Source: Pohlia nutans
Lineage: Eukaryota; Streptophyta; Bryopsida; Bryales; Mniaceae
DNA length: 64,000 bases
Reading direction: 5' to 3'
Assembly: GCA_022496805.1 (NCBI GenBank)
Contig: CM040085.1
Span: forward strand, 46,591,811-46,655,810
Shown: positions 3,998 through 57,400 of the stretch, one piece after another
Layout: the number at the start of each line of letters is the position of its first letter
Position numbering within the stretch: the first letter of the stretch is position 1
Program-made: the position numbers and the translations under genes
The notes under the pieces: model-generated
Seen by the model: only the letters and a program-made list of their open reading frames with translations
Databases searched by the model: none
Told to the model about the DNA's origin: nothing

Positions 3998-5693
3998 CAG
4001 TCACCTATAGAAAGTAAGGTAACCCCACAATCCTCCATTCTCTAAAATACTATCAAACTCACTACAATGATTTGTCAATCACCAAAATTTTCCCATAACA
4101 CAACTTGTGTATGGTGCAATTTTGTGCCAAATCTGGTGCAAGGAAGATGACCGGAAGTTGCGATAATGTCAATTTACCAACTTTTTTGTCTAATGTGAAA
4201 AAAAGTGTATATCAATTACGCAAAAGCTTCCAAGGATCCAAAAACTTTATAGAAGGTAGAAGTCACAGTAAGGAACAATATGGTGTTATAAAAAAGAATG
4301 GTATTCCTAGGTATTTTTAAATTAAATGGTGACTACATGCAATTCAAAATCAAAAAAATAAGCTACATTTTAGTTTAACTATATAATAAAGTAATTAGCC
4401 TACTTTTGTCACTTTTTTTGTGAGACCGTATTGTCACAGTCATGAACAATATAATGTCATAAAACAATGACAAAAATAGATCAATTACTTTATTATATAA
4501 TTAAGCTAAAATTTGGCCTTACATTTTAAATTTGAATTGCATGCACACACCATTTAATTTAAAAATACCTAGGAATACCATTCTTTTTATAACACCATAT
4601 TGTTCCTTACTATGACTTCTACCTTTTGTGAAAAATTTGGATCCTTGGAAGCTTTTGTGTAATTGATATGCATTTTTTTCCACATCAGGCATAAAAGTTG
4701 GTAAATTGACATTAACCCCTAAAGGTCCCTAGTTTTTTTGGGCTTAAAATCATCATCGCTTTTGATGTGTTATAGGTCTAAATGTAAGTGAGGTATAGAA
4801 ATCTCAACCGTACAATCTTGTAACATACATGTTGTAGATCATGTGGATCAATTTTGGGGTCATTTGGCCATATAGATTGCAAGATCATAGTGTTTTAGTG
4901 CTAAAAAAGGATGCTGAAATTTTCCTAGCAACACAGTTATAGGTGAAATTCGTTTTCAAAATTACTCAAATGAAAAAACGTTGAACTATAAAGTTGTTCA
5001 AAATCATCATATAAACACATTAGTACCAAAAAAGCCTCATGAAAAAATTTAATGTGCCCTAAAATGGCCTTGCAATGTCAAAAAGTAGCCCGAAAAGTGA
5101 CCCATTTGAACCAAAAAGCAAAAAGTGTCCAAACTAGACCCGTGCACTAAAATGACTCCCAAACATTCATAACAACATGGATTGACCTGAAAATTTTACC
5201 ATGATAACTAGACTTCAAGGGGAATTCAACCCAACAAGTTTTATTGAAAACGGACTTGGGATGAAGGAGATACAAGCCCCCAAAGTTGCTGCCATCAGAA
5301 TTCACAGAACTGTCCAAAAAAAACATACCTACTTTCAAATGATCACCAAAAATTCAATTCATCTTGGATTGATCTGAAATTTTTACCACATATTCCATAC
5401 ATCATGCGGGGAGTTTTTTCAAATTTTCAAAAAAATCGGACACGTTTTGCAAAAGTTACAGCTCTTCGAAGGTGACTGTACCCCCAAAAACGTCCAAAAT
5501 ATGGACGCCGGGACGCTTAGGGGTTAATGCAACTTCCATTCATCTTCCTTGTACCAAATTTGGCACAAAAGTGCTTCATAAACAAACTGTATTGTGGGAA
5601 AATTTTGGTGATTGGCAAAGGATTGTAGTGAGTTTGGGAAGCGTTTTAGTGAATGGTGGATTGTGGGGTTACCTTACTTTCTATAGGTGATTG
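3998..5693. mobile_element. Foldback element with ~440-bp inverted arms, interrupted by a TTAA element
   Basis: The left arm (3998-~4435) and right arm (~4440-4711 plus 5528-5693) are inverted copies of each other. Ends read CAGTCACCTATAGAAAG on the left and, complementing the right, CAATCACCTATAGAAAG. Both flanks show TA, which fits a TA target duplication (Tc1/mariner-like), but this is tentative. Removing the 812-bp nested insertion leaves about 884 bp. No transposase reading frame is present. Confidence 0.75.
4712..5527. mobile_element. TTAA element (piggyBac-like MITE), 816 bp including target repeats
   Basis: TTAA at 4712-4715 and 5524-5527 bound CCCCTAAAGGTCCC on the left and, on the complement of the right end, CCCCTAAGCGTCCC. 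It sits inside the right arm of the foldback at 3998-5693. The left arm retains the equivalent uninterrupted site (4163-4166). A subterminal palindrome, CGTCC-7 nt-GGACG, lies near the right end. No transposase is encoded. Confidence 0.88.
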
Positions 5694-5843
5694 TACATTG
5701 TACAGTAGTGTTCAAATTAATCCCCCTCTTGTGCACTCACGTGATTCCTCACACACATAAAAGACTGCACCCTAGGTGTTTCTCCAAGTCACACATCTAA
5801 ACTACATTGAATTAAAAAAATAGTGTATTTTTTTCTCCCTACT

Positions 5844-6076
5844 TTAACCCCTAAACGTCTAAACGTGCTATGGCGGCCAGTAGAATACGGTGTATTTTGG
5901 TTGTATTTGGAATGAATCCACACCTTTAATGGGTTTAAGTGCAAAAGAGAAGTTGAAATTTAGATCAATGCGGTTCTAATGAGTTATTAAGATCCCAATT
6001 TAGAGTTTCTTGTTGATAGCAAATCTCAATTATACGACAACATATATACTATCCCCATAGGATGTTTAAGGGTTAA
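5844..6076. mobile_element. TTAA element (piggyBac-like MITE), 233 bp
   Basis: Left end is TTAA-CCCCTAAACGTC at 5844. Right end is GATGTTTAAGGG-TTAA ending at 6076, whose complement reads CCCTTAAACATC. Short and non-coding. Confidence 0.82.
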
Positions 6077-8464
6077 GGAATGATCTCGGATGAATACATC
6101 ACCAATGCATCATTAAAATATTTCTTCTTATACAGCCTTTCAAATTCAAGTTCAAATCATTTGTGCTCTTTGCAAAAACCACTCAGCCTTAGTCATAGTA
6201 CCAGGCCACCAAAGTAAGGACAGAAGGCAATAATAGAGGGCGCCTAGAGGGACTTATGGACTGTACTCTGGTTCCATGCATGAACTCAAGGATCAAGATG
6301 CTGTATGTATCATTTTGGACCTCACGGGGTCTTTAGGGTAAAGGGTGGTTCTCCCGACCATTTTCAAGAGTGGTTCATATAAGTGTACTTGCACATGTTT
6401 GCAAGTAGGTGCAAATTATTCTTGAGAATGGTCAAACCCAATTTTGATCTTGAAGATGAGTTTTCTTGTGTTACTCGACCATTAGACAAAGTGTCGAACA
6501 CACTGTCGAAGACATCTAGTAGACCTCCTTGCATGTCAGACTATCATATTCTTAAAATATATCCGAAACATTCTAAAATGTTCTTGAATATTATTTTCAT
6601 CCAAGTTGTTTAACATACTTGAAACTCGTTTAATTAAATAATTGACGTCAGATGTCTAATACAATGTCAAGTTGGAAAATAGAGTCAGACATAACAACCT
6701 TGGTCTCAAGGTCTCACATAAAAAATGAAGTTTATTTAGTTTATAGTATACGATGCATTCACAATGAAAAAAGAAAGTGGTCAAATGTGCAATATAAAGA
6801 GTGGTTAGGCAAAAAATTCTTCATATTGTATAGATTTTATACAAAGTAATCTTCATGTTGTATTGATTTTCGTGATTATTAAACATTGATGACGGGTGAA
6901 AGCACGGTAAATTGAACCATTAAAGTCATCCTTAGTGCTGAAATTACAGTTTTTTTGGTCAAAGGCCATAAATTACGACTAAAAATTTCATATATTTAAG
7001 TTCTAATTTGGTAGAGCCCTCCATAGTTCTATTAGGTACTTCAATCCAAAGTTTCAAATTAAAATATTAAAAAAAGGTTACTAAAAGTAAAGCTTGAAAA
7101 TAGATGTCTGAAACAAATTTCGGGAGCAAATTTGATGAATTGAATCATGTTCAATATGAACATAAATTATATATTCTATAAGTTCATTGTGCATTTGACG
7201 GCTCCAAAGAAAACAATTCTTGAAAAAATAAATATTTAATGCAATTTCAACATGTTTTATATCTACTTTTCAATTCGGTCATAACTACTTTTCCAATTTT
7301 AACCGCATTAACCTTACTATAACACACATAAATATTTTTTGAACATGATTTTTTCAATTTTTTTAGTTAGACTTTGTTAAACGTTGTATCTTTTATTTCA
7401 TCTACAAAAAAAAATTCACAAAAAATAAAAACTTAATAGATTTTTGGACCTTGCATTGTTGCTTCTTCACATGGATCACAAGTGGTTTAGTTTACCATGC
7501 TTTCACCCTGACACCCATGTTAAATAGTCCATCAGAAATTGTCAAAATGTATTTTAGGTTGAGGGCAAGGTCAACACATTTATGTTTTTTGAAAAATAAG
7601 GTACAGAAAATAACATATTTTCAAAAATTCTTCAAGTTTTACTTTTTCATTATGAATAATGATATTTGTTGAAAAAACTAAAATTTTACATTTATTTTCT
7701 ATTGACCCTACCTTCTATCTACAGTATTCAAAATAATGTATACAACATATTCAGATGTGATATATATATAGAATTGTTGATTTATGTCGTTTCATCAATA
7801 TAATTGATAATATTAAGGCCCAATAACTCAGCAAGTCACCAACTCACCATTATATATACTCCGTATAATTATGTCAAATTGTGCTTGAAAGTGTGTTTGA
7901 CTTTTCTACCATTGAGGCTTGATATTATGGTACTTACTTAGAATTTTAAAAGGCCTCCATGAGCATGAATGCAATATAATTTCTATCTTCATAAGGTTCT
8001 TTAGCCCTCTTTGTAACACCTTACCACTATTCATGAATCATCGTAGCAAATACCCGAATCATGGTCATTATTCCCCAATCATTGTAGCCGATAACCAAAT
8101 CATGGCAAGTCCATGTCATTTTCAGTTAAAGATTGAGTGGTGAGACATTGTATATAATGTTAAAACTTCTATAGTGCTACTATTGAAAAGGGTGGACTCC
8201 ACTAATTGCTAAAGAACTTTACATCCCTCCTCATAGAGGAACCTTATTTTGTTCCCTATGACCCTACTATATCTCCATTCTTTTCAAAGTGTTCCTTTCA
8301 TGTCCTTTTCGAGTTCCATATCCAAATCTTGGGGTTCACTACACAAAAATATTTGAAACCATGTGTGAAAAAATATAGGGTAATATAAAAAAAATTGTGG
8401 CAAGTATTTTAAATTTTATTACTTGTACATATAATATAGGCCATTTAGAATGGAAGAAGAGTAG
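6077..8464. other. No gene recognised
   Basis: About 2.4 kb of AT-rich DNA with only short frames (at most 80 codons) and no family signatures. Confidence 0.45.
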
Positions 8465-9411
8465 TTAACCCCTAAATTTCCTTGTGTTTTTGGGAGCTTG
8501 AAACCTCAAAACTGCGATTTTCTACCTCTATGTACTCCCGGGGATGTGAACCAAGTTTTTTTACTTCTTTTAGAATTCCAACCGTAAGATCTTGTACCTA
8601 AGCCTATTCATAGCTACTGTTTCAAAAATTGACCGTTGGATGTTTATCATTTGCAAGATCATAACATCCAAAGTTTGTGCAAAAGTTTTTCGGGGCATTG
8701 CTTGGGAGGCATTGTCTCCATAGTGCAAAGGGGGACTTGAAGATTGTTACTCCAAACATTTTGCTCATATTTTTTTCCATGTAGATAACTAAGTTGGGTA
8801 CGCTCATGCAAAATTTTAGAGACTCATTACGCGTTTCAAACCTTCATCCAAATTAATTTCCGGAAGTAGGTATAAAAATGGCAATTTGGTGAAACATGCA
8901 TCACATTAATTGTATTTGATTTTTGGAAAAAATGAACGGTGATTAGGTACCTCTATGATTTTATAAATTAGAGGCGAAATTATTTTAATTTTTTTTCAAA
9001 ATCTCAAATTTTGACAAATTTCAAAAGAAATGGATGTGAAATTACAAAAAACCTGGGAGGTTGCTGTTCTTTATTTTGGAGGCTGCCCTTGTCAAGCCAA
9101 GAATATAATCAACATGGGTCACTTCAAATTCTGAGCCTATATGTGGTGAAGAGCATGTCTCCAAAAAAAAAATTTGAAAAAATGATTATAATAAAAAGTT
9201 TTTTTCTGCCCCAGTTGGGCTTGAAACCAAAAATTTCAATAAAAAGATTATAAAATCCGAATTTGACTTTGTAATTTTTACCCCACACACCTTGTATGTA
9301 TGACCACGCCCACGCCAAATTATAGTCTAAAATTCTTAATTTAGACCTTCCATCTAAGCTGCCCGAAACAGCAAAAAGCCATTTTGGCTTTTAAGGGCCT
9401 TTAGGGGTTAA
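8465..9411. mobile_element. TTAA element (piggyBac-like MITE), 947 bp, largest in window
   Basis: TTAA-CCCCTAAATTTCC at 8465; the complement of the right end reads TTAA-CCCCTAAAGGCCC from 9411. The interior has only short unrelated frames and no DDE transposase is recognisable. It is the best candidate here for the least-deleted non-autonomous form. Confidence 0.82.
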
Positions 9412-9557
9412 AAAAATATAGGCATGCGTAAATATTGGAGTATTTGGTTTTCTTAAAATAAGATAGGATCCAAAGTCATAGGATTCTTGGATTTGTTGTA
9501 GGGTGAGTAGTATGGTTGAATGGATTTAGACGCGTCTTTGCAACTACCTTCTTGCAA

Positions 9558-9915
9558 ATCCCACATAAAAACATATAAAATCTAAAAACTCCAAAAACAT
9601 AAACCTAAACTCCAAAAACTCCAAAATCATAATTTAAAAAACCTTTATAATTTGGAAAAAATTAAATAATTGCATAGAGGTCAATCACCTTTTTGCAAAT
9701 ATTTATATAAACCAATGGATCAAATAGGATGGAAGCATGGAGATTAATTACCTTCTTGCAACTAATGAGAATTCCTAACCGATCATTAAAAAATACATAT
9801 ATCAATACTTAGGTATAATATAATCCACATGAAAACATATTAAATCTAAAAGAACTCCAAAAAACATAAATATGAACTCCAGAAACATAATTTAAAAAAT
9901 AAAATAAAATTATAA
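9558..9915. repeat. Direct repeat of ~95 bp, two copies
   Basis: Two AT-rich copies, about 9558-9650 and 9822-9915, share CACAT-AAAACATAT-AAATCTAAAA followed by ACTCCA-AAACATAA and CATAATTTAAAAAA. Function unknown. Confidence 0.5.
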
Positions 9916-11289
9916 CTAAGATAGGGTATAATTCACTTGGGTGAAAGCATGATAAACTGAACCACTTGCAGTCACTATGAGGAAGCCATAAATCACTGTG
10001 AGAAAGCACTCACTGTGAGGAAGCAATGAAAATCTACAAAGGGTCGGAGTTCCGTCCCTCTACCTTACTCTTTTAGTTCTCCATGGAGCCAACAATGGAA
10101 AGCCAGCAAAGACTCGCCAACTAGTAGAATAGTGTATTAAATTGGCAGTTGATGATAATTTGAGAGTCCGTCATCAACAACTATTCATGAGAGGGACGCG
10201 ATCTGGTCATCAGCTCACACGTGTATCTTACGTTGTGGAGTGCATTGCGGGGTTGCTTTGAGTTGTGACCAAAAACATGTGGATCTGTATGAGTTACCCA
10301 TTCCAATTGTTGCTAGTGACTTTCCGCGTTGTAGGTCTCTCTTACTTCACTCAACATGCAAAGATAAATTTGTCAACTGTATGTATTTGCATGTGCATTG
10401 ACTTTGGGAGCCAGTGAAGCTGTCAATATTACAAAAACCAAATACCACATATTGAGTGAATTGGACGTTTGGGGCCATGTAATGCTCAATGCAGTATTGT
10501 CAGGATTTCCATTTCAAAAGCTGCAAGAGAGCAAAGCATTTGTAATAAAAGAGAATGATTGGTTTTGCAGACAAAACTCAACTGGCAGAAGGAACTTTAC
10601 CATTGGCTAGGCAACTGTCTTTTATAGTGGTACTTCATCCTGTCACAAAATCCAGTTGGTACCAGGATAGGTATATAGCGGTGGTACGCGATGGATTCAA
10701 CTCTTTACCAAAAGAAATGGATTCAATTCTTTTTCCAAAAGAAATTCTATCTACACTGCACCGAAATGGTTATTTAGTATGATACAATGTATTTATCATA
10801 ACGACATAGTATTATTCAGCATCACTTGTGACGATGGCATTATAGCATTTGTGATGTGCACTAGTGACATTGTTAGAGCATTCACACCCATCTCCCTCAA
10901 TTCACCCCTTAACCACTACATTTATTATCCCATTTAGTGCATGTGGTACTAATTCTTGAAGCAAGCACTATTTTGCCAAACCTCAAAATTAAAGAGGGCT
11001 GAAATTTTTACGGAGTGGCTGAAATCTTCATATATCACGCTTATTTTACATCATAATGATATTTAGTATCACCTTCACTAATTCCCCACATGCACTATAA
11101 ACCCCCCTTCCCTCACTAAATGGGATAATCAATGACATATCATCACACCCAAAATTTGGTATCACAAGCTATCGTCTCCACACCCTTCAACTGCACTAAT
11201 ACAATTGTATGGAGATTAGCAGCATGCGCCAATATTCATATCCTAGTCAACCACACTAATATTCAAGTATACAATGCCCTTTAGTCAAC
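9916..11289. other. No gene recognised
   Basis: Two overlapping frames near 10398-10782 show no family signature. A possible PIF/Harbinger-like end (TTA-GAGCATT at 10873) and a short inverted pair (TTATCCCATTTAGTG near 10926, complement near 11116) are present. Confidence 0.4.
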
Positions 11290-11531
11290 TTAAGAACCAA
11301 GAAGCCCAAATTGGATCTCATGTGTTTTTCTTTTCGCATTTTTGAGTAAGTCCTACAAGGATTTCCTTTTGTTCAAAATTATTTGTTATTTGACCAACAC
11401 ATGTATCAATGTTCTTCACTGATTCCAATGATATGAAATTTGGTCCCATCTGAATTACATATTTCACAATATGATTGATTGAATTTGTCATTTTAAAACC
11501 TTAAATCCTCGGTCCTTGAGCCCTGAGTTAA
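11290..11531. mobile_element. Degenerate TTAA element, subfamily 2, 242 bp
   Basis: TTAA at 11290-11293 and 11528-11531. Terminal repeats are eroded: the left begins directly with GAACCAAGAAG, having lost the CCCCTAAAGG part. The interior matches 20680-20883 (TTTTGAGTA-GTCCTAC, TTCTTCACTGATTCCAATGA, GATATGAAATTTGGTCCC). Confidence 0.65.
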
Positions 11532-11965
11532 GTGCTTGCTCAATGCTCAAACTTCATGTGTGACGTTGATTGTTTCAATCAGTTGCAACGAGTTGGTTAA
11601 TGAGTGAAAAGGCTAGAAACCAGTACCAGACTACCAGCCAAAAGAACAGTTGAATCAGTATGTGCAGTTCACCCGTTTTAGCAAGGCCATCATGGGTGGG
11701 AGTGGACTCTGACAACATGGATTCCGTACAGACCAAGTCAAACCAAGTCAATTTCACTTCGGTTTCTAACTCAAGTCAACCAAACTTGAGCAGGCTCTTG
11801 GAATCTTCCGCTGTTTCATGATTCACCGCAAGCATGGATGTGTACACCGGTATCAAACAACTGGGATTTCAACATAAATTTTTTGACAGCTGTTACCGGT
11901 AGTTTGTCCATCCATGCCTCAAGGACATCTACCCTTGGTAGCTTATGAGGCATTGAACAACTGGG

Positions 11966-12239: not shown

Positions 12240-12289
12240 TGTCAAAGGCAGTTTCCGGTCTGAAAACTAGCTCAAACTTTAGGGGTTAA
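12240..12289. mobile_element. Solitary right end of a TTAA element
   Basis: CTTTAGGGG-TTAA ends at 12289 in right-end orientation. I find no matching left end upstream, so this is a solo or truncated terminus. Confidence 0.4.
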
Positions 12290-12748: not shown

Positions 12749-13806
12749 AGCTCCTCCCTCGTCCTCTTGTGCTATCGAGCTACGCACTCACTCTCCCATT
12801 ACAAAACCCTAAACACAAATTAACTAATTCATTGTCTAGATAACAAAACTAGCTTCTCACAAACCAACACACTAATCAAAATTAGCTTTACGATCGAGCT
12901 AAAGAATAAGTTTAACCCCTAAACGTACCAGGGTGTTTCAAGAATTGACAATTTGAGAAAAAGCATTATAAACTACTATTTAGAAGAATATTTTGGAATT
13001 GATATACAAATGAAAGTTCTAGATTTTGAATTTTAGATTCCATCCGTACGGTTTGATTCACTAATACTATCTCCAATATTTAATTATAAAATTTGAAAGT
13101 TAAAATTAAAAATTCCTTCTAAATTCGATTACAAACAAAATTTTAATATTTTTTGAGTAAAATTTATTGGAATGAATTTGAAATGAGATACTCTTAAACG
13201 TGGTGATTCTTTGAAATTTTTGTGTTTCTTAAATCTGTGACCTCATTTTTGCAAGGTCACTTTTGAACTACAGTCAATGCAATTTTGGCTTGGTCAACGA
13301 CTTGACACACTTCTACATTTGTAATTTTAGAAAAATATGTAATCAAGTATGACTAAATCCAACCGTTAGATAGGACAACAACTTGGTGAAGAATCTCCGA
13401 AAAATGGGATGACTTTCATCCAAGCATTGATGAGAACGTGAGAAGGGTTTGAATCTGTTAGTCGTCCACTTTCTGGACGCTCTGACGTTTAGGGGTTAAC
13501 CAACTGAGCCTCTTGATTTTATATGTAGCACTTTTGAGTCTGCTTACTTTCAATTACAGCTTATTTTTTATCTACCTCCCTCGTCCTCATCTGATTAAAA
13601 TCATGTCAGTGAGCCAAAACCCAGACACAGATTAACTCGTTCATTCCTTTCCATTCCTTAAACCCTAGACTAGCTTCTCACAAACCAACAAACGCCTCAC
13701 TCTAATCCAAATTAGCATCATGAGCTAATTAAAGCTGAAGTTGAACCAAACTGAACCTCATGATTTTCTAGCACTTTTGAGTTCTTCTCTTCAATTATAA
13801 CATATT
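12749..13806. repeat. Tandem duplication upstream of the glyoxal oxidase-like gene
   Basis: Copy 1 (12749-12915 continued at 13500-13571) and copy 2 (about 13572-13806) share CTTCTCACAAACCAAC, CCCTCGTCCTC, CAAATTAGC and TAGCACTTTTGAGT. Copy 1 is split by the TTAA element at 12912-13499. The duplication lies 0.6-1.7 kb upstream of the gene start, so it may hold duplicated promoter sequence (inference). Confidence 0.7.
12912..13499. mobile_element. TTAA element (piggyBac-like MITE), subfamily 3, 588 bp
   Basis: TTAA-CCCCTAAACGTACC at 12912; the complement of the right end reads TTAA-CCCCTAAACGTCAG from 13499. A subterminal palindrome CGTCCACTTTCTGGACG lies near the right end, as in the HSP60-intron elements. 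It splits copy 1 of a tandem duplication whose copy 2 keeps the empty site (13742-13745). Confidence 0.88.
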
Positions 13807-18994: not shown

Positions 18995-19279
18995 ATCATC
19001 TCAATTTTGCCATCCTATGATTGCCTACATAGGTCCATGTTGTTTCAGTTGGTCATAAATTTGTGTCTCAATGACACGAAAACAACACAATATGGTCATT
19101 GATTCAATGCTAAAACAACAATGATTGAATTGGTGGCCACTGATGTAGTCATTTTCGCTATAGCACTGAATCAGTGACCATATTGTGTTGTTTTTGTGTC
19201 ATTGAGACGCAAACCTATGACCAATTGAAACAACACAAACCTATGTTGGCAATCAATGGGTGGGAAAATTTGAGATGAT
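18995..19279. mobile_element. Long-hairpin MITE, ~285 bp
   Basis: Arms of about 130 bp pair across the element: TCATCTCAATTTTGCC on the left against GGGAAAATTTGAGATGA on the right. Inside, AACAACACAATATGGTCA pairs with TGACCATATTGTGTTGTT. No coding content. Confidence 0.7.
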
Positions 19280-20679: not shown

Positions 20680-20883
20680 TTAACCCCAAAAAGGACCAAG
20701 AAGCGCAAATGTTTTTTTACCAGTTTTGAGTAGATCATGTGGAGACCTTCTTTCGTCTATTTTGTGACTCACACCCAACGCTCTTCGCTGATTCTGTTGA
20801 TATAAAATGTGGCCCCATTTGAATTATATTTTTTACAATATGATCATTTTAAGTCCATTGATTCTTGGTCCTTTACGGGTTAA
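20680..20883. mobile_element. TTAA element (piggyBac-like MITE), subfamily 2, 204 bp
   Basis: TTAA-CCCCAAAAAGGACCAAGAA at 20680; the complement of the right end reads TTAA-CCCGTAAAGGACCAAGAA from 20883. It is the reference copy for subfamily 2 (others at 1-80, 11290-11531, ~27190-27390 and 45242-45525). It lies about 190 bp past the peroxiredoxin stop codon, so it could fall within the 3' untranslated region. Confidence 0.85.
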
Positions 20884-25741: not shown

Positions 25742-26126
25742 TTAACCCTTAAACGTCAAGAGGGCCTGGGCGGGGCAGCCCGGAAGGCATCTTAATTTTC
25801 GGAGAAAAAAAAAAAAAAAAAAAAAAAAAAACGAAAAAAATGCAAAAACGGCTCTACGGGACACTGCTGGCCAGCACTGTAGCACTGCGGCACTGCGGCA
25901 TCTCAGCTGCCCCAACCTCAAAAACTTGTTCAATTTCATAACTTTGATTGCTTACCAACGATTCCACAATCTCTCAAATGAGGCGAAAATTTGCAATCTA
26001 GATCGCTTTTTCAGTAGCTTTCCAACGCACCAATCCACGCTTGATTTGGTTGAGAAAATCTACTTTTTTCTTGATTATTCTCTTTTAAATAAGCCCATGG
26101 GGCTTACCTTGACGTTTAAGGGTTAA
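25742..26126. mobile_element. TTAA element (piggyBac-like MITE), subfamily 4, 385 bp
   Basis: The inverted repeat TTAA-CCCTTAAACGTCAAG is perfect at both ends (25742 and, complemented, 26126). Near the right end AAGCCCATGGGGCTTA forms the palindrome seen in subfamily 4 copies at 30056 and 45771. A run of 27 A (25805-25831) lies inside. Confidence 0.9.
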
Positions 26127-30055: not shown

Positions 30056-30607
30056 TTAACCCTTTAACGTCCACACTACATTTACCTAGTCAAACCTCAT
30101 CAATTTTTCACATTTTAAAATGTATTATATTATTTTGGTATTTTTCTCATGTAATTTATTTATTAACCAATTTACATTGATATTTTCATAATTATTTAAA
30201 TGAGAATGAATTTTATAAGATTTTTCAAAGCTTTTCTCTTGTAATAGCCATAGTAATTACAAAATGCCTAAAAGAGTATGAATTTTTTTAGGAAAAATGA
30301 AAATAATAGTGATGAACAACAAGGTGTAGCTGGCATACTTCTTAAGGTTATATAAAAAGAAATTCAATTGAAAAAAAAATTGCAGTGTGTATTGGAATTT
30401 TAAGGCTTTGAGCTTTAAAGTGTTGTGAAAAATGCTATTTTAACAATTTTGAAGAACCTTAAATTGGACTATAAGTAGAATATAACTCCAACACTTTTTT
30501 AGTTGGGACCGTTTTCATTTCAAATTAGGAACTAGGTGAAAATCAACGTTTGACTAAAAAATGATCAAACATGGCCCCATGGGGTTCCTTGCACGCTTAA
30601 GGGTTAA
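30056..30607. mobile_element. TTAA element (piggyBac-like MITE), subfamily 4, 552 bp
   Basis: TTAA-CCCTTTAACGTCC at 30056; the complement of the right end reads TTAA-CCCTTAAGCGTGC from 30607. A GGCCCCATGGGG palindrome lies next to the right end. Confidence 0.85.
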
Positions 30608-33874: not shown

Positions 33875-34901
33875 AAGTAAGAAAAATAAACATGTTGTAG
33901 GTTATGACTAGTAACAAATTCTTGTCACGGGTAGTACTTTTAAGTTAATCTAGTGTTGCTACCCACTAAAGGATGAAATTTCAACACGATGATACTTTCA
34001 AATTGAATAAAGTGTTTATCATCTTTCCACCTAGTATATAGGGATTTGAACTTTACACTAATTAGTGATTCGATTATAGTCATTGGTAGTTCTTGTATCA
34101 CTTCAGTCTCTTGTATACATGCTTGTAGGCTTGAAGCTAGTGGGACCCTAACAAAAAATAGCGTCGTCTTACATAATTTTATGCATGGAAAAGAATAAGA
34201 TGCTAGATTAATGGGCAAAATTTCAAGCATTTGACCAAAAAGCTAGAAATATGTTTTCCTCAAAAACTTGACAAAAGTACACTTTAAATCTCAGACAACA
34301 CGTTGAAATGAAATATGCACGGCATTGCTAGATCTATATCAAACATATTTGTAATGTGAGCTGGATTCAAAAAGATACTAAAGTCATTTCTCGTTTACTC
34401 TTTCTTTGTAGTTAGTGTCACCTTTTGACTATATTGACTCTTAACCAAAGTATCTTCTTTAAATAATTTTATTTCATTTCCTATTCTAGTTAACGAACAA
34501 GTATAATTATGAAAAGGGAAAGAAACTAGATTTTGACCGTGTATTCCTGGTTCTATAGTTATTTGAATTATGAAATAGATTAAATTTTGCTACCTTTTAA
34601 ATTGACCCATGCTATTTTCCTCACTAATAGAAGTCTTGTTTAATGTGACATATTTTAATGACTAAATTTTCATAACAACATGTTCATAGTGACTCAAATG
34701 ACTAACAATTATAAAAAGTTAAATTTAAAGACCACATTGAGTCACTGTGGACATTGTTATCAACAATTCACACTGATTTTTCATAACAATACAAACACAA
34801 TGATAAATAAGACAATATGATTAAAAACACTATATAAAGACCTTAGCAATTGTTAAACATCAAATCACTTTGTAACTCTAAACTACTTACCATACACACA
34901 C

Positions 34902-34975
<74 letters not shown>

Positions 34976-35770
34976 CCTATTCTCATAGTATTATTATGGT
35001 GTGTTAGTACATTCGACATTAATTATAACATTTTAAAACAAACAAAATGAAAAGTTTGATTTTTTGAAACTTAATCTTAAAATGAATTAAAATTTTGACA
35101 ACCTCTTATTAAAACTACTATATCAGAGACATAATATTTTGAGTAGCCTTGGCTTGTCTTATTTATCACTGTGTTTGAATAGTTGCAACACATTTGTATA
35201 AAGTGTTAAGGGAAATTGCTTGGGACAAGGATATGAAAATTATTTTATTTCATAATCCAAATAACTATAGAAATAGGAATACAAAGTCAAAATCTAATTT
35301 CTTTCCCTTTCTAATCATTATACTTATTTTCTAGCTCGAATAGGAAAAGAAATTAAATTAAACAAGATACTTTGGTTCAAAGTCAATGTAGTCAAAAGGC
35401 AAAAGGTGACATTGACTATAAGGAAAGAATAGAAGAGAAATAACTTTCGTCTCTTTTTGAATTCAACTTGAGCACATGAAAAATATGTTTGATTAGGATC
35501 CTACTAGCTTCAAGCCCACAAGCATGCACACAAGAGACTGAAAGTGACACAAAAACTACTAATGACTGTAATTGAATCACTAATAGCTTAAAAGTTAAAA
35601 TCTTTATAAGCTAGGTCGAAAGATGATAAACGCTTTATTCAAAGTAAAAATATCAATGTGTTGAAACTTCTTCCTTTAGTGGGTCGCAATACTTGGCTAA
35701 CTTACACACAATACCCTTGACAAGAATTTGTTACTAGTCAAAACTTTCAACATATTTATTTTTCTTACTA
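33875..35770. repeat. ~1.9-kb imperfect palindrome around an (AT)n core
   Basis: The left arm (33875-~34812) is an inverted, diverged copy of the right arm (~35155-35770). Matching pairs include ACTAGTAACAAATTCTTGTC (33908) with GACAAGAATTTGTTACTAGT (35719), and AATGATAAATAAGAC (34798) with GTCTTATTTATCACT (35155). Arms are unequal in length. No transposase is seen. It could be a foldback transposon or a source of hairpin-derived small RNA (inference). Confidence 0.75.
34905..34970. repeat. (AT)n microsatellite, ~66 bp
   Basis: An uninterrupted alternating AT tract preceded by a short (CA)n. It lies near the centre of the 33.9-35.8 kb palindrome. Confidence 0.95.
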
Positions 35771-43120: not shown

Positions 43121-43136
43121 GATATTTAGGGGTTAA
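43121..43136. mobile_element. Solitary right end of a TTAA element
   Basis: GATATTTAGGGG-TTAA is in right-end orientation. No convincing left end was found upstream within 400 bp. Confidence 0.4.
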
Positions 43137-45770: not shown

Positions 45771-46012
45771 TTAACCCTTAAAGGACAATGCAAGCCCCAC
45801 GGGCTTGATAATATTTTGGGAGAATCTTGCTTATAACTTCTACTCTGTTGCACCAAATGGGGTTTTTTAAATGTCAAACCCGGCACTTTTGAGGGATCTA
45901 TACTTCTTTAGAATAGAACCAAAGTAAATTAAAAAGAGAATCATGCTTAAAATGGAGTTTAAAAGAGATTTTGGGTGTGGAATCCGGAAAGCATATGTCC
46001 TTTAAGGGTTAA
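45771..46012. mobile_element. TTAA element (piggyBac-like MITE), subfamily 4, 242 bp
   Basis: TTAA-CCCTTAAAGGACAATGC at 45771; the complement of the right end reads TTAA-CCCTTAAAGGACATATGC from 46012. The palindrome CAAGCCCCACGGGCTTG lies next to the left end. Confidence 0.9.
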
Positions 46013-47321: not shown

Positions 47322-47911
47322 TTAACCCCTAAAAGACTATGAAGCCACCACGCGGCTTCTGGAATTAGGAAGTGAGGAAATTCAAGTTGTTGGGCCGTGA
47401 ATTGTAAAGTGAGCAACAAAGAGACCTTGGTTCTTTTTGAGAGCTGAATCCGTGGGTACTTTTTGATCAGAATTTCATGAAGTGTGTGATTTTTGGTGAT
47501 TTTTTTGAGTTGCAAGGAGGCTATTTGGGAGTCACTTGAGACCCTCATATCTTCCTCCTCACACCTCCAAATTATGTGAAATGTTTTTCACATGTTCAAA
47601 ATGATGATCTCTATGCATGGTAGAAATTTCGGAATTTTTGGAGCACTTTTGATAAATCCGATTTCAGCATATGTACAAAAAACCCCAAACGAGTTCCATC
47701 AATCTTTTTAACGGTAGCATTGTCTCAAAAATTGTGCGATTTTCTTGATCTTTTCTTATACAAAAGCTATGTAAGTTTTCTTTAATTTCAACGGTGCCGA
47801 TCGTCAAAATAACCCCCACACCAATGAGGAATTGAGCTAGTTATAAGAGCTAGTCAAGAAAATTAGAGCTAAACTAAAAACCCCCACCCCCCTGGGTCCT
47901 TTAGGAGTAAA
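47322..47911. mobile_element. TTAA element (piggyBac-like MITE), 590 bp, abutting the next element
   Basis: TTAA-CCCCTAAAAGACTATG at 47322. The right end is GGTCCTTTAGGAG-TAAA ending at 47911, where the target repeat has mutated to TAAA and is shared with the element that follows. A palindrome AAGCCACCACGCGGCTT lies near the left end. Confidence 0.72.
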
Positions 47912-48479
47912 CCCCTAAAGGACCAAGTGTCCTAACTAGGACATTTCAATGTTCGGGTAGGTTCCCACGGTGTCAATTTTTAATTTTATCTTTTGAAATA
48001 AATTATGTGAATTTGGTATATCTATACAAAAATGGGGATCTAATTTTTTTTTGATGCGGACCTTTTAAGTGGAAGTTATGGAGCAAAAGGGGTTTTTTTT
48101 TTGGGGAGATTGGGCAGTGCAGACAGGGCTCAAAATAAACCTCTGAAATTATTATTTTTCAACTATAATAGTAGAATCTTGTTTTAGATTACCAAGAGAG
48201 TGTATGGTTAAAATTTCATAGAATTTGACCATACAAATTGCAAGATTATAGCGTTTGAAGTGAAAAGATGAAATTGTAGTATTTTTTTAATATTTTTTGA
48301 CCGTCTTTGAAGACATGGGAAAAATTGTTAAAATTGGTCAAAAAAAAATCTTAAATTTTATTTAAATGTTTAATTTGGTATTTTCTATCAAGAGCAAAAA
48401 AATATTTACAAGAAAATGAATAAAAAGAGGTGAAAATGATGCTCCTAAATAGGAAAACCCGCGGTCCTTTAGAGGTTAA
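47908..48479. mobile_element. TTAA element (piggyBac-like MITE), 572 bp
   Basis: TAAA-CCCCTAAAGGACCAAG begins at 47908, sharing its target repeat with the preceding element. The complement of the right end reads TTAA-CCTCTAAAGGACCGCG from 48479. Confidence 0.78.
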
Positions 48480-49824
48480 CAAGATGCATGACTCAATTTG
48501 ACAAGATGTTCAATTCATTAGCATTTTTCAGAGACCTTGTAATAGGTGCGGGTATGAAGAAAGCAAAAGATTTTAGCTAAATTAGATTATCCCTTCAACT
48601 CTCATCCAATTGGATGAACCCACAACTCATGGCATGCTACTCATGTAGGTTGGAGACAACTTCCTTTTAGGTGCCCAATGAATCTCATTGACTTAGATGT
48701 TTTGGCAAGCCTACCCAAAGTGTTGAAACTGCCTTTCAACATTGAAGTGTTTCACTTTGAAAAATTCCTCTAAGTGGAGTTTTGATTGAATGGACATTAT
48801 TTTAATTGATTGGAAAGAAGACTCATTTATTTATGACATCGTGTTTTTTGTTTTGAAAAAGTTATTTTTGGGCCTAGGCAGCCCGGAAAAATGGCAGCAA
48901 ATACAAAATGGTCTCTTTGGAGCTTAGGGGTTCAGAGATTTGATGAAATCATTCCAGTTTGTTTCATTTTTTGATTATTTTCAAAAGCATTGTCTATTAT
49001 GAGACGGAGGGAGTACATAATAATAATAATAACGCTAGCCTAAAGACCATCATGAATGGAGTCTATTGAAGTTAGCTCGTCTATCTATGCTTCAAGGGCA
49101 TATACAATATAACACCATATACAGATTTTATAAACTATCAAAGTGTAATAGTCATAGGTCTACGCAAAATCAACTCACAAAATTTCCTAGGGGGTGCACT
49201 CTACATTATGTTTGAGAATCACGTGCGTTTGTGACCTCCTCCAACAACCCCTTGTATACAAGAGGTTATATGTCTAAAAACCTTTGTATACAAATCTATC
49301 CACTCCTAAATATATATTTAATGTAAGTATACATCAATATTTCAGCTCTAAATATGTTTATTGTATGTAATACGACAATATTGTCTGTATATGTAATACG
49401 ACAATGTGCAACTTAGTACCCCTTTTGTGCACTCACATATACTTGTATGTATTTAGTACAATGTACCCCAGGCAAAATTTGTACTTATAATTTTATATTA
49501 TCAAATATTGAAATTTAGAATATACTATTTATTTTTAATTCATAGAAAAAATACATTAAAAAATAAAATGAATGACTCAAAACTACCCAAGTGATTGGAC
49601 TGGTAGTAAGACTTACGGTTGGCATCCATGACTCTCCGTGAACAGGGTCTTCAATCATCCTTCTCGATTGAAGCTTGAGGTTGAATAAGGGCTGCTTTAC
49701 AACCCTTTTCACCAAGACTAGAGTCCGAAACTTCCAAAACGTTTTTTACATTAAAAACGACAAGATTTGGTACAAGAATTGGGTCCACCAAAAATGAAAG
49801 ACCAATTTTTTAAGGGCATGTTTG

Positions 49825-49827: not shown

Positions 49828-49906
<79 letters not shown>
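49828..49906. repeat. (TA)n microsatellite, ~79 bp
   Basis: Uninterrupted TA dinucleotide tract, 65 bp upstream of the long hairpin at 49971. Confidence 0.95.
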
Positions 49907-49909
<3 letters not shown>

Positions 49910-49970
49910 GGTTAAAAAGTTAAAGATATGGAGAGGAATATAGGTTGAAATTTCCAAGGAATTTATACAA

Positions 49971-50332
49971 TAGAGTTATCCTTAAAGTCACCTTGTGTTT
50001 GAATAAGATACCGTGAATTTTGCTTTAATGTACTCTTATTTGTTCACCCCAAATAGTTAAAAAGTATGGAAAAGCTTGGTGATCTATCATTGTTAGGTGC
50101 GTAAGAGCTTGGTGGTCTCTAAACTCAAGGGAAACTAGTTTAGCCATCAAGAAAGACGGCTAAACTAGTTTTCCATGAGTTTGAAGACCACCAAGCTCTT
50201 ACACACCTAACAATGAGAGACCACTAAGCTCTTACCTACCTTTTAACTATTTGGAGTGAACAAATAAAAGTACATTAATGCAAAATTCACGATATCTTAT
50301 TCAAACACAAGGTGACTTTAAGGATAACTCTA
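49971..50332. mobile_element. 362-bp near-perfect hairpin element
   Basis: The arms pair almost base for base: TAGAGTTATCCTTAAAGTCA at the left end against TGACTTTAAGGATAACTCTA at the right, down to a ~12-nt loop near 50150 (GGCTAAACTAGTTTTCC paired with GGGAAACTAGTTTAGCC). Ends are TA on both sides. Low divergence between arms means recent origin. Confidence 0.85.
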
Positions 50333-50553
50333 ATGGATGTAACATTCTTCAGCCCTTGTTGAACCACACCCTTTTTCTACAATGCCTCTATAGTGCCGCT
50401 ACAATATAAAGTACTAATAAAATAATTCAACTCTTCAACTCTCGTTGCTTGGCCCAGTTGAAGTTATTGTAGATCCTCCAAGATGCTTGTGATTCCAAAG
50501 CATTGTAGATGCAGATTCTTTTGATGTCACATTTGCGGAAATGACATGCTGAA

Positions 50554-50910
50554 AGGCCACTTCACATTATGGCCGAAGGTCAAGAGGCCGTCGATTTCCA
50601 CCAATCGGATTGCAAGAAACCAAGGTCTCTCGACCCTTCATACTAGAGGCCAAAGTCCAAAGGCCGTCGCCCTCCAAATGTTTACATGGCAACACTTTTT
50701 GACCAAGGCGACGACCTCTCGAAAGGAAGTTTGGGTCAGATGGGAATGGAAACCCAAACTATGGTCGAGAGGCCGTCGATTTCTTTTCATAAAAAATGAA
50801 AACTATAATTTATTGCCTATTTTTAGTAGATTTCTTTGGACTCTCAACAAAGTTTGACCACTCAATCCCACGGCCTCTCGACTTGGACGACCATAGTGTG
50901 AAGTGGCCCT
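50554..50910. mobile_element. Inverted-repeat element, ~357 bp, GGCCAC ends
   Basis: Left end AGGCCACTTCACATTATGG; the complement of the right end reads AGGGCCACTTCACACTATGG. Similarity continues further inward (CGAGAGGCCGT words in inverted positions). Its internal 103-codon frame has no family similarity. Confidence 0.65.
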
Positions 50911-51145
50911 AAGAACATTATGAAGTGGATCCATTGCCTTTACATATGGAAGAAATTGGCTCCATTCTAGTCTTGTTGTATTGACTACCTGAGGTCGGGC
51001 CTAGTAAGCCTAATGTAAAGCGGGCCTAATAATATGCCAAAGGGTAGGTCCTTTGCTGTGGCATGTGAGTAATATGTGCCAATAAAATTAAAATTAAAAA
51101 TTAAAATTAAATTAAAAAAAGAAAAAGAAAACTAAATCAAGAATG

Positions 51146-51162
51146 TTAGGGTTTAGGGTTTA
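51146..51162 (+). promoter_or_regulatory. Telo-box-like motif upstream of HSP60
   Basis: TTAGGGTTTAGGGTTTA, a doubled telomere-type motif, lies about 270 bp upstream of the HSP60 start codon. Telo-boxes are common in promoters of plant translation and housekeeping genes. Confidence 0.5.
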
Positions 51163-51430
51163 ACACGAGGAGAGCCCCGGGTCACGAGAGGGGAGAGCCT
51201 TCAGTGAACTCCGCTTTCACTCACGTTGCTTCTGGATGCTTCCACAGCCTCGATCTTTGCACAAACCAAAAGCTCTGGCGATCGCTACAACAACAACGTT
51301 TTACTTTACCACGTTGCAGTTTTGAGCCTCCTCCACTCCATTCATTCTTCCTCTCCCCTGCTGCGATCCTTCTTCTCGTTCTTGTTGCAGTTTGTTCCAT
51401 TCATCGTGGAGGTTTTATTAGGCCACAATC

Positions 51431-54400
51431 ATGTATCGTGCGGCGGCTGCATTGGCGTCCCGTGTCACCAGGTGCCTGTCATTCTCGTTTCGCTTCTCAT
51501 CTCAAGAATTAATTTTCTTTTCTTTTCTTTTCTTGGCGCGATTTGGAGTACCGGAAATGTTGCGTTGTGTTCGCCTTGTTCGAAAGTTTTGTGTTGCGTG
51601 ATTCGTAATCTTTCTTTGATCTTCCTTGGCATTGTGATTCTTTGCTATTTCGATCCGGATATTTGACCTAATACATTTTACCCTTTTTTTTACACCGATT
51701 TTGAGTGAGGCTTACTTGTCATTGCGCCATTGATATGTTGTGTGAGGGACGGTGCGGCTTTGGTTTTGTTGTAACTGTTTTAACTGTGATTAATTTCGTA
51801 TATTGTGTGTCTTGCAGGAGACGCTCACTTGTGCAAGTAATTTTTTCCTCGAAACCGTCGGGTTTAGGGTTTTTAATGGACTCTGCAATATAATAACTTT
51901 CAACTTAATCAGCAATGCAGAAGCACAGGATGAATGTTAATAGTAATGATCACTGTTGTGAGTTTGAAGCTGTATATACTTTCTTTGCGGACGAGTACGT
52001 AGCGAGTAGTCCGGATTTTTGAGTGTGAGAGACTGACTAAAAGCGTAGGTAGAGGATGCTATTAGCGTCACTTCAAGGGTTTTAATATATGTAGGAGTGT
52101 GATTTTTGGGGAGATCTTTGAGTACACGAGCCAAATCTGTTGAGATCAAATTTTTATCGCTATGTATGAATTTCTTATATAATTTGAAAATGGGAGTTTG
52201 TAGATCATTACAAGTGGCAACATCAAATTTTTATCACTATGCATGAATTTCTTATGTAATTTAAAAATGAGAGTTTGTAGATCACTACAAGTGAAAACAG
52301 ACAACCTCATTTCTATTCAAAGATCAGTGGCTATAGACATTTAGCCAAGTCATACTTGCTAATTCAAGGCCAACCTAGTGCATTTATAGATGAGTTACTG
52401 TTGGTAACAAGGTCAGTATAGAACATTGGATCAGGTCTCTAACAGTCTTAGTATCCTCCACCTTACAGGATGTCAGTAAATTGCAGTCAATTAGACATTT
52501 TTCTGCAAAGGATATTAGGTTTGGAGTTGAGGCTCGTGCTCTTATGCTCCAAGGCGTGGAGCAACTTGCAGATGCCGTTCAAGTGACGATGGGGCCCAAG
52601 GTAACTTACTCTTTGTGTCACTTTAAGCATTTTCACATATGTGGAGTGTGATTCTTTGTTTTACTCTCATTTTGATTCTAGGCGTTATATGTGTGTGCTT
52701 GGGGTTTAGTATCGTCATAGTTGAAGACAGGGTTGACAATGCATCTTACGATCAACACAGAACATCATGCTGATTTAGTAGTAGGATATAGTGGATACTA
52801 ATTATGATAGTGCTGAGAATGTCTTCATTTCTTTTATACAGGGCCGAACTGTTGTCATTGAGCAATCTTATGGCTCTCCTAAAGTGACGAAGGATGGCGT
52901 CACTGTGGCCAAAAGCATTGAGTTCAAGGACAGGCTTAAGAATGTGGGAGCTTCACTTGTCAAATCGGTCGCTAATTCCACAAATGATGTCGCTGGAGAT
53001 GGTAATTCCTCGGTCCCAACCTGATTGAAAGTTTTAAGATCTACCGTCTTCGGTACTTATAAACCCGGAGGAAAGAATCAGGGAACACCGATCTTAACAT
53101 TTCTATAAACTTGGCTGACATAAGCTATTGGGTTTTGTAGGAACAACTGCTGCAACAGTGCTCACTCGAGCTATCTTTGCTGAGGGTTGCAAGTCTGTAG
53201 CAGCTGGAATGAACGCCATGGACTTACGCAGAGGTATTAACCTTGCCGTAGATTCTGTTGTGGCTCATCTCAAGAGCCAGGCCAAGATGATCAGCACATC
53301 TGAAGAGATTGCACAGGTGAGCTTATTTTTTTTTCGATTCTGGACAATGTGTGATGATCTTAACCCCTAACTGCCCAACCGTCCATTTTTTGGACGATGT
53401 ACAGATTTCGTCCACGTTTTCTCATCCGTCATGCACTTTTTGCAAGGAAAAAGTATACTACGAATTTTGTATAGTATACTATAGCTTCATGCATGTGTGA
53501 TCGATTAGAAAGGGGATGATTTGTGAAAATTTTATGCCTCATTTCATTTTGCAGTGATTCAACAAAAAATTTGAAGATTTTAGTCTAAATGTGCTCTTGA
53601 AAAAATAAACTCATAAAATTAAGCAACCAAAAAATCTCCAAAAATCACTACACTGAGAGTATTTCATTTCAACCCATAACAACAAATTTCATCCACAAAT
53701 TCTCAATATCTTATTCGTACTTGAATTACAAAATATTTTTGAATTTCAAGTTTCAAATTTTACACAAAATATTGGTGATAGTAATTGCAGATCTAAGCGT
53801 ATGGATAGAATCTAAAATTTATAATGTACAACTTTTATTCATACATCAAGATTAAAATATCACTCTTAGTTGCATTTTATAATGCATCTTTGCAAAACTG
53901 CCAAATTTGGAGAGGGGTGAGGACGTTTAGGGGTTAATTGAGGCTCTTATGGTGCGAACACCAGGATCCAGGACTTCTCAACTCAATTGTATTTATTGCC
54001 GTGAAGTAAAGCTGCAAACATGGAGGTGCTGATTTCATTCGTGTCGTACTTGATTTTTGAGTAGGTGGGAACAATCTCTGCAAATGGAGATCGTGAAATT
54101 GGTGACTTGTTAGCTCGCGCTATGGAGAAGGTTGGCAAGGAGGGTGTCATCACTGTCTCGGTGAGTAGATTTTTGTATTTTCGTGTTTCTTTTATATATT
54201 CAATAATGCTCAAAGTTGTGTATTTCTGTATTTTTCACGTGTTTAGGAGCATGGATGTTAATTGAGAGTTCTATCTAATGACAGAAGAGTCGATGCTTGT
54301 CTTTCTTGTAGGATGGAAAAACCCTTTTCAATGAGTTGGAGGTTGTTGAGGGCATGAAGCTCGATAGGGGATACATTTCTCCTTACTTCATCACCAATGC

Positions 54401-57400
54401 GAAGACTCAGAAAGTGGTGAGTATCCGAATCAAACTCACTGGATGCTGGTAGAGTCTCTGCGCTCACCCTATTAGTAGTCTTTCTTCACTACGCAATTAT
54501 GTGCCTGATCTTTGTTCGAGGTTTGTTTTTAGAGAAACCTACTCTTCATTTAATTTGATGGTGACTGGTGTGATCATCAATGATGCAGGAGTTGGAAAAT
54601 CCCGTTATTTTGATTCACGAGAAAAAGATTAACAGTCTTCAAGCAATTCTTCCAGTGCTTGAGCTTGTTGTGAGGGTAAGCCGTCATTGGTTCTTTATGC
54701 TTATGTTTAGTTTGCTTTCCTTAACTCCTAAACGCCCAACCATCCATTTTCTGGATGATGTACAGAATCAAACTCTGTTTTCTCATCCGTGATACACTTT
54801 TTGCAGTGGATTTTTTACTATAGATTTGGGAAGTTAACTTCATGCATGTGTGATCCAATTAGAAAGGGGATGATTGGTCGTATCCTTAGTCGCATTTTAC
54901 AATGCATCTTTGCAATTCTCCAAATCTGGAGAGGGGTGTGGGCACTTAGGGGTTAAACTGAGTTATCACAATGAAAGTACGAGGGTTTGTTTCCACAAAA
55001 TCTTTGTGCTGTACACAGAAGCTCATGTTTTTCATCGATCACTTCTAAGCTTAGGGATTTTAATATTTTAATATTTTAATTTTTTAATTTTTTAATTCTT
55101 ATTGTGTTGGTGACGCTGATTATTATAGTCAATTTTACCTGGCTGTCAGGATCAAAGGCCATTGTTGATCATTGCTGAGGATGTGGAGAGCGAAGCTTTA
55201 GCTACGCTGATTGTCAACAAGCTTAGGGGAGGTGTGAAGGTATGCATGCGGTGCAACCCTGCCTTCGTGTTCCGATTCGGTGTGTTGGGATGTGCGGACA
55301 TTGCTCTGAACTAAGTGGTAGTTCTTTTAAATGAGTATTGTGTTTAACAAATGATTTCCTTCAGTTTCGTTTCAAATAAGTGGCACTTTTTTCATGTAAA
55401 TTCAATTTTAACCAGGCTTGTTACTTTTGGTTTATGGAAGTTCTGTGGAAGAGACTGATATGTGCTAATTGTGTGAAAACAGGTCTGTGCTATCAAGGCA
55501 CCTGGTTTTGGTGAAAACAGGAAAGCACTCATGCAGGATCTTGCCGTGCTTACTGGTGGGCAGGTAGGACATCATTTGGTTTGTCTCACCGTTGTGATCA
55601 ACTAGATAAAGCACCTCTTTTAATGACTTTTGTTTGATATTGAACTCTCATTAGCTATCTTTTATTAGGATTCCTTTGACAAAGAATTTTGATATTGTGT
55701 CCTCACTGTCAACATTATTATTAATATTTTGAATGACGGATGCAGCTCATCAGTGAAGACCTTGGATTCAAACTTGAGAAGGTTACAGCAGAGATGCTTG
55801 GATCTTGCAAAAAGGTTGGTCATAATTTTGAAACAACTAGGCATTCTTGCTTTGTTCAATGTCCTTGGTTTAAGACTTCCATACCTGTTTGTTCTTGCAC
55901 TTGTCATATCTAAACTCATATCTGTCCAGTTTGAATTAGTTGTTGGCCTTGATACATGTGGGTACAAAGCTTACGACATGTTCTACCTCACAGGTCACAG
56001 TGTCAAAGGATGACACCATTCTCCTGGATGGTGGTGGTGACAAGACCATAATTGAAGACCGTACTGAACAGGTGTTATATCTTCGTTATGATCATGTTCC
56101 TCATATTTTTATGTGGAGGCTGTCCAATATATTTTTTAAATTTTTTAATCCAGTTGGGACCTTTCTCGGTATTATGCCCTTTTAAAAATGCTCTTGTATG
56201 TGGCTTGCTTGAGTTCCTTGTGGATTCCTGCCTCAGCCTTGGTACTAATTGTGGTTGTGATTCACCAAACTATGACTGAGACGACGTTGGTCCTTTACAG
56301 ATTCGAGAGGCTGTCAACAATGCCACTTCTGAATATGACAAGGAAAAATTGCAAGAGAGGTTGGCTAAATTATCAGGAGGCGTTGCTGTGCTTAAGGTAT
56401 GTTAGCTATTTGACTTCCGATAATTGTATTGTTTTATAATGAGTGAAGGATTGTTTGTGATATGCAGATTTTTGTGTGGATAAATGTCTTAGATTGGGAA
56501 TTGATATTTTCCATTTCAGATTGGAGGAGCAAGCGAGGTCGAGGTGAATGAGAAGAAGGATCGTGTAACTGATGCATTGAATGCCACTAAGGCTGCTGTT
56601 GAGGAGGGAATTGTACCTGGTATGTTTGTCACATTCCTAACAAGCGTACAATGTGGGTTTTGAACAAGCTTGTGGTGTGAATATCTTCACACAAATTTAG
56701 GGGTTTGTTTGCTTCAGAGCTACTGTATGGCTAGCTGATTTGCCAAAACTGGCTTATTTGTAGCTTTGTGTGCTTTATATTAATGCTGTTCACTTGGTTG
56801 AATTAGGTGGAGGTGTTGCTCTATTGTATGCTTCTCGGGAGCTTGACAAGATTCAAACTGCAAACTTCGACCAGAAGATCGGAGTGCAAATTATTCAGAA
56901 CGCTCTTAAGGTACTAGAAACTTGAAAAACATAGTACTTGTCATGGCCGTTTGTGATTAATTGGTGATAAGTGTCTGTTAGTCTTGCCTGATAAATCGTT
57001 ACAGGCGCTAGTAAAATGCCCGTCAACGTTTCTAATCTAAATATAAAAAAAGAAGGATGCCCGTATGAGATCCAGAAGCAGGGAAGTTCATAATTACACT
57101 AGTTTGTGTAATTTTTCCTTTTTAGGAGATTCCGTGACATAGTAAGCCTGTTTTGCAGATGCCTGCCTTCACTATTGCTCAAAACGCTGGGGTTGAGGGA
57201 GCTGTGGTGGTTGGAAAACTTTTGGAACAAACTAATCTGAACATTGGTTACGATGCTGCTAAAGGTTGGTCATCTTTCTTGTTCAGTCAGCTTTTTGCTT
57301 TTATATGTTTTGAAACCTATTTGCGTGTGTATTTGAACTGAATAGTGATTTCTTACAGTTCGAGGCTTCTCCTGATAATAGAAATAGTTGATGTTAATGA

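Follow-up and report, generated by a model that had tools for sequence, protein, structure and literature searches.

Probable piggyBac-type MITEs and their full-length relatives in a moss genome

The window studied here is a stretch of 64,000 nucleotides of contig CM040085.1 (positions 46,591,811 to 46,655,810; positions below are those of the window). It carries plant genes for a glyoxal oxidase, a peroxiredoxin and an NPF/PTR2 transporter, together with twelve listed short elements, which we interpret as miniature inverted-repeat transposable elements (MITEs) of the piggyBac superfamily. All twelve have inverted ends resembling TTAA-CCCYTAAA at both sides, and ten of them are flanked by TTAA on both sides. 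The remaining two, 47322-47911 and 47908-48479, adjoin each other and have one common site, which now reads TAAA. The tips of 20680-20883 and 54721-54956 are imperfect. A CCC tip is also found in the piggyBac element of Trichoplusia ni.

The tip motif TTAACCCYTAAA has 16 exact matches in the window, whereas 100 dinucleotide shuffles gave 0.02 on average. Scanning the genome (697.8 Mb in 332 contigs) gave 109,650 copies (54,687 + 54,963) of this motif and 1,163 copies (524 + 639) of the reversed pattern, which served as control. The family of TTAA-flanked, CCC-ended elements described in the first-pass annotation, which was made from the sequence of the window alone, is thus borne out by both ends in all twelve elements and by the excess of tips.

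We further used a 264-kb sample, consisting of the window and 20 further 10-kb stretches: 11 on contig C1, picked near listed hits, and nine arbitrary ones on C2-C10. Inverted CCCYTAAA pairs were chosen regardless of their flanks, and TTAA was found on both sides in 26 of the 35 pairs. None of the 16 outward-facing control pairs in the sample had TTAA on both sides, and the reversed motif gave no pairs at all. All four TTAA positions are about equally conserved, in 113-118 of 135 CCCYTAAA sites.

An empty site was found for the element 4712-5527, which is inserted in one arm of an inverted repeat whose other arm is unoccupied. When its flanks are joined with a single TTAA, they align ungapped to the unoccupied arm over 170 bp. 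In the unoccupied arm, ATAA stands in place of the TTAA of the element, and the empty site is therefore paralogous and not allelic. TTAA as the target duplication (in 26 of the 35 pairs and at the paralogous empty site) and CCC/CCY tips as short inverted repeats are both features of the piggyBac superfamily.

With a looser pairing rule, elements occupy 8,785 bp of the 90,000 bp sampled at the nine arbitrary places, and in the window 8,308 of its 64,000 bp. Extrapolated from these small samples and this loose rule, the MITE swarm might make up about a tenth of the genome. The loose rule also yields extra decayed elements (48587-48934 and 57938-58556), whose interiors cluster with those of other sampled elements. 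The 72 loosely paired elements of the sample fall into 37 interior clusters, two of which are large (13 and 12 members), in agreement with the earlier observation of different interiors behind common ends.

Tip-to-tip elements that share one TTAA occur at 47908-47911 of the window, and two autonomous copies also have such a neighbour at their 3' ends (L030 4891-4894 and L032 978-981). The target duplication of an element seems to have been reused as a new target in these cases.

A profile search of the genome with DDE_Tnp_1_7 (Pfam: PF13843) gave 1,305 first-look candidates, of which 116 were scored, and every listed row was above the cut-off. The listed matches have E-values from 1.6e-81 to 3.1e-74, many of them in open frames of more than 500 codons. 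The same search was positive in none of 14 control genomes, the kinds of which are not stated. Four transposase families, called T17, T14, T6 and T2m, were opened. The T14, T6 and T2m elements are 5,035, 5,507 and 5,909 bp long and have TTAACCC tips at both ends. T17 is represented by three copies with the same tips, T17a, T17b and T2b, of 9,103, 8,919 and 9,134 bp, which are 96.7-98.8% identical over the pieces listed and are bounded by TTAA in three different flanks.

The three copies have TTAACCCCTAAACGTCCAAC... and TTAACCCCTAAACGTCCTCACC... ends. The left end of T17 reads TTAACCCCTAAACGTCCAAC-CGTCCATATTCTGGACG-ATGTACAGATTTC and its right end TTAACCCCTAAACGTCCTCACCCTTCTCC. Using BLAST, the left end of T17a matches MITE 53360 with 79.4% identity over 97 bp and MITE 54721 with 81.4% over 86 bp. 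Less extensive matches of the T17 left end were found to the ends at 13499 and 5527 (86.5% over 37 bp for the latter). The T17 right end matches the end at 53937 with 91-97% identity over 30-35 bp. The right end of 54721-54956 looks similar to it by eye, and no BLAST match was reported there. The check proposed in the first-pass annotation was to look for an autonomous relative that shares these ends and encodes a transposase of the DDE_Tnp_1_7 type. Such a relative was found for one group, namely the three T17 copies of about 9 kb.

The T17 protein itself matches PF13843 with an E-value of 8.3e-82. Among the proteins in the PDB its best match is the T. ni piggyBac transposase (PDB: 6x67; E = 5.4e-35), and piggyBat (PDB: 9c0f) is matched with E = 2.1e-21. 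The aspartate motifs of T17 are in register with those of 6x67 (VTIDE/LTIDE, DNFFTS/DNWFTS and GVDVSDQ/GVDTLDQ). D214, D300 and D417, which we take to be the catalytic DDD aspartates, are invariant in all four aligned transposases and invariant or nearly so in 37 rows. At the C-terminus C512, C515, C525, C528, C538 and H543 are likewise invariant in the four transposases and may form a zinc domain. The predicted fold of T17 (mean predicted local distance difference test score, pLDDT, 86.0) again has 6x67 as its best PDB match (E = 1.9e-25), with piggyBac and piggyBat ranking first. A PF13843 transposase, the DDD aspartates and a C-terminal cysteine-rich domain are thus all present, and the transposase is combined with the same ends as the MITEs in the group with CGTCC-type palindromes only (described below). 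The assignment to piggyBac, which the first-pass annotation had made from the ends, is supported by T17, since it encodes PF13843 and its ends match MITE 53360 at both tips.

In the T17 copies (L029, L036, L037) there are tandem repeat arrays with offsets of about 40 bp on both sides of the transposase frame, partly as mutual inverted copies. A second long frame lies upstream of the transposase in T6 (357 codons, L031 39-1109) and in T2m (415 codons, reverse complement of L032+L035, 4186-5430). These two frames are partly alike, with 73.7% identity over 315 bp, and the part of the T6 frame that was scanned had no Pfam match.

Besides the tips, many ends share a subterminal feature. Counting the TTAA as positions 1-4, a 17-bp palindrome with at least 5 of 6 outer pairs is found at positions 21-37 at one end in 8 of the 12 window elements and at both ends in none. 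In the 264-kb sample, 166 ends have tips with at most one mismatch, and 32 of them carry the palindrome at start 21; of the 16 further starts examined in the range 15 to 45, none has it in more than 3 ends. Grouping of similar ends leaves 88 clusters, 12 of which have the palindrome at start 21, compared to at most 2 at other starts. It occurs at no, one and two ends in 52, 20 and 0 of the 72 paired elements, respectively. A free search for the best hairpin, 12-60 bp from 27 ends, gave a modest signal (a score of at least 16 in 8 of 27 ends compared to 5.6% of random places), which became sharp when the place was fixed at start 21. In shorter windows, a palindrome was also seen at starts 79 and 80 in 11 of the 166 ends.

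The letters of the palindrome vary and include CGTCCA/TGGACG, CGACCA/TGGTCG, CAAGCC/GGCTTG and CATGCA/TGCATG, among others, while its two halves agree with each other. Matched halves of the form CGTCC-N7-GGACG are found genome-wide at this place 2,229 times (1,064 + 1,165), a number that counts copies and not independent events because many copies are related, and the mixed halves CGTCC-N7-GGCTT once. In T17 the palindrome is located on the transposase-5' (left) end, and in this one family the polarity is shown.

The cysteine-rich domain of the T. ni piggyBac transposase binds as a dimer to a palindromic repeat at bp 17-33 of one left end (PMC7351741). Since the palindrome of T17 is on its left end, it has the same polarity as in piggyBac. 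Counted from the first base after the TTAA, which we assume to be the way the piggyBac end is numbered and which fits that end, bp 17-33 would correspond to positions 21-37 here. By this analogy, the one-ended palindrome is a putative binding site for the cysteine-rich domain, matching in position in T17 and 8 of the 12 window elements and in polarity in T17.

The best explanation is that the elements are non-autonomous piggyBac MITEs, moved in trans by piggyBac transposases of full-length relatives in the same genome, to which we assign a probability of about 95%. In analogy to T. ni piggyBac, the transposase would cut at the tips, leave via TTAA hairpins and integrate at TTAA. Its core domains would recognise the CCCYTAAA tip, and at the left end a dimer of its cysteine-rich domain would bind the 17-bp palindrome, whose centre lies at bp 25 counted from the tip. 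We infer the cleavage chemistry, the binding by the cysteine-rich domain and present-day activity, and all of these for the groups that have no link to a transposase.

Several observations weigh against this explanation. The palindrome is shifted in T6 (24-41) and T2m (25-41) and only weak in T14, so positions 21-37 are not universal, and 52 of the 72 paired sample elements have no palindrome there. Weaker excesses of palindromes were also found at starts 78-80 and, in a looser set, at 51. Within the 120 bp scanned, the T17 right end has no palindrome of at least 5 pairs at a comparable position and only one at 81-98 that is unrelated. In piggyBac, the other end contains the same palindrome too (PMC11707139). 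Furthermore, only the CGTCC-type group is linked to a transposase by its ends.

This last point leaves room for a division in which only the MITEs with a CGTCC palindrome are piggyBac elements, and those of the AAGCC type (45771, 47322, 25742 and 8465) were moved by an unrelated transposase that also uses TTAA. In line with it, none of the four transposase families opened yielded an autonomous element with an AAGCC-type palindrome end. But four families are few out of many, and both groups have the same tips, the same TTAA and a palindrome at the identical place 21-37, which makes such a division unlikely. The elements could also belong to Kolobok or Sola3, both of which we take to duplicate TTAA. 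However, the autonomous copies that carry such ends have a PF13843 transposase, and piggyBac is the nearest solved structure as well as the nearest fold, so that we consider this highly improbable. For the CGTCC group, Kolobok and Sola3 are ruled out by the PF13843 transposase of the T17 elements. No Kolobok or Sola3 transposase was met in an element with T17 ends, but no search was aimed at them, and the T17 result therefore says nothing on the other groups. Similarly, TTAA contains TA, and its outer T and A might be only a preference of a Tc1/mariner-like element with a TA duplication. We give this hardly any credence, as all four positions of the TTAA are about equally conserved and the matching elements carry a piggyBac transposase, which rules it out for the CGTCC group.

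The transposases of T14, T6 and T2m are 42-46% identical to T17. Two protein searches gave 113 and 115 relatives. The nearest ones are environmental proteins without an organism label, with up to 74% identity, and those with a label name animals; no land plant is named by the labels of these 113 and 115 relatives. We built an unrooted tree of 44 rows from the four transposases and 40 chosen relatives. The four transposases and 18 unlabelled proteins form a group with 100/100 support apart from all ten animal-labelled rows, and within it the four are interleaved among the unlabelled proteins in at least three lineages. Because of this interleaving and the separation from the animal rows, the genome probably holds several transposase lineages, which would represent an old piggyBac branch and not a recent acquisition from one of the animals sampled. 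The earlier suggestion that one transposase mobilised many cargos was not supported: at least three lineages that differ this much have TTAACCC-type ends, so one transposase need not explain the varied interiors.

Compared to known systems, the elements resemble the T. ni piggyBac in the TTAA target, the DDD transposase of the PF13843 kind, the left-end palindrome and the asymmetric ends, as far as the structures 6x67 and 6x68 and the available text of PMC7351741 describe them. They differ in length (5.0-9.1 kb compared to 2,472 bp, given in an excerpt of PMC10140906), in their varied palindrome letters, in having the palindrome in one end of T17 rather than in both, and in that the closest sequence relatives are the unlabelled environmental proteins. 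The piggyBat element of Myotis lucifugus (PDB: 9c0f) has an imperfect palindrome on its left end, 3 bp after a motif at bp 11-16, and the available text of PMC11707139 reports none found on its right end, which is comparable to T17. In the same text the unit of motif and palindrome occurs three times in the piggyBat left end, whereas T17 has one palindrome, at 21-37, within the 120 bp scanned. Between the T17 and piggyBat C-terminal Cys/His domains, there is a weak second stretch of similarity, which is not significant.

That piggyBac families are not common in land plants, as the first-pass annotation stated, is fair but not absolute. A review includes PiggyBac in the MITE superfamilies of angiosperms (PMC10004981), and the repeat tables of Ceratopteris and Stipa contain 1,230 copies (PMC6890710) and 1 copy (PMC8319324), respectively. 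In the available parts of these surveys, PiggyBac is a label given without a transposase or a description of the ends, and both copy numbers are small. Elsewhere plants are counted among the hosts of piggyBac-like elements (PMC8086355 and PMC10140906), and according to a 2025 paper piggyBac occurs in plant genomes only now and then, with red algae as the example named (PMC12732532). In the open-licence literature searched, no published account of a moss piggyBac expansion like this one was found.

The mechanism appears to be ordinary, since the group whose transposase is known agrees with piggyBac in every testable feature of the superfamily. The host, the number of elements and the set of different palindromes behind a common tip are unusual. 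We regard it as possible, though a little short of an even chance, that a plant-borne piggyBac branch radiated in one moss genome into many lineages with the same tips and palindromes of their own for the cysteine-rich domain. These would be mutually separate and partly active systems with their own MITE swarms, together about a tenth of the DNA. PiggyBac, a standard tool of genome engineering, has been described chiefly in animals. Plant-adapted piggyBac systems would be available from a plant genome that contains about 110,000 exact tips, autonomous copies that are 96.7-98.8% identical and 12 palindrome end clusters in 264 kb. Such a genome would also make testable the joint change of the cysteine-rich domain of a transposase and its palindrome.

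Table 1. Elements, unpaired ends and the paralogous empty site in the window.
Feature	Position	Strand	Remarks
piggyBac-type MITE, 816 bp	4712..5527	-	TTAA both sides; palindromic (left-type) end at 5527 CGTCCATATTTTGGACG; within inverted-repeat arm
piggyBac-type MITE, 233 bp	5844..6076		TTAA both sides; without palindrome at 21-37
piggyBac-type MITE, 947 bp	8465..9411	-	palindromic end at 9411 AAAGCCAAAATGGCTTT
piggyBac-type MITE, 588 bp	12912..13499	-	palindromic end at 13499 CGTCCAGAAAGTGGACG, matches T17 left end
piggyBac-type MITE, 204 bp	20680..20883		tips decayed; TTAA both sides
piggyBac-type MITE, 385 bp	25742..26126	-	palindromic end at 26126 TAAGCCCCATGGGCTTA
piggyBac-type MITE, 552 bp	30056..30607		TTAA both sides; without palindrome at 21-37
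piggyBac-type MITE, 242 bp	45771..46012	+	palindromic end at 45771 CAAGCCCCACGGGCTTG
piggyBac-type MITE, 590 bp	47322..47911	+	palindromic end at 47322 AAGCCACCACGCGGCTT, 5/6 pairs; right site TAAA common with next element
piggyBac-type MITE, 572 bp	47908..48479		adjoins 47322..47911
MITE of the autonomous T17 family, 578 bp	53360..53937	+	both ends match T17; palindrome CGTCCATTTTTTGGACG at 53380-53396
T17-related MITE, 236 bp	54721..54956	+	left end matches T17, 81.4% over 86 bp; palindrome CATCCATTTTCTGGATG at 54741-54757
decayed element (loose pairing)	48587..48934		interior clusters with two further sampled elements
decayed element (loose pairing)	57938..58556		interior falls in largest sampled cluster
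unpaired right end TTAACCCCTAAAAGACC	69..80	-	element would begin before the window
unpaired end TTAACCCCTAAAGTTT	12278..12289	-	no clear partner
unpaired end TTAACCCCTAAATATC	43125..43136	-	no clear partner
unoccupied inverted-repeat arm	4044..4273	-	paralogous empty site for 4712-5527

The relatives of the window peroxiredoxin were searched with 7,997 candidates scored. Among the 120 listed of 641 matches, the moss Ceratodon purpureus provides the closest relatives with an organism label (78% and 77% identity, full length), followed by Selaginella and Sphagnum (68-69% over 69-72%) and, just after, flowering plants. A land plant as host, as had been stated before, is supported by this, and on the basis of this one gene the host is probably a moss.

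The window further contains long inverted repeats or near-perfect palindromes at 33876-35769, 49965-50338 and 19003-19270, with arms of 134-228 nt that are 82-90% complementary. At about 49003-49019 it has GGAGGGAGTA, which resembles what we take to be a Stowaway-type end.

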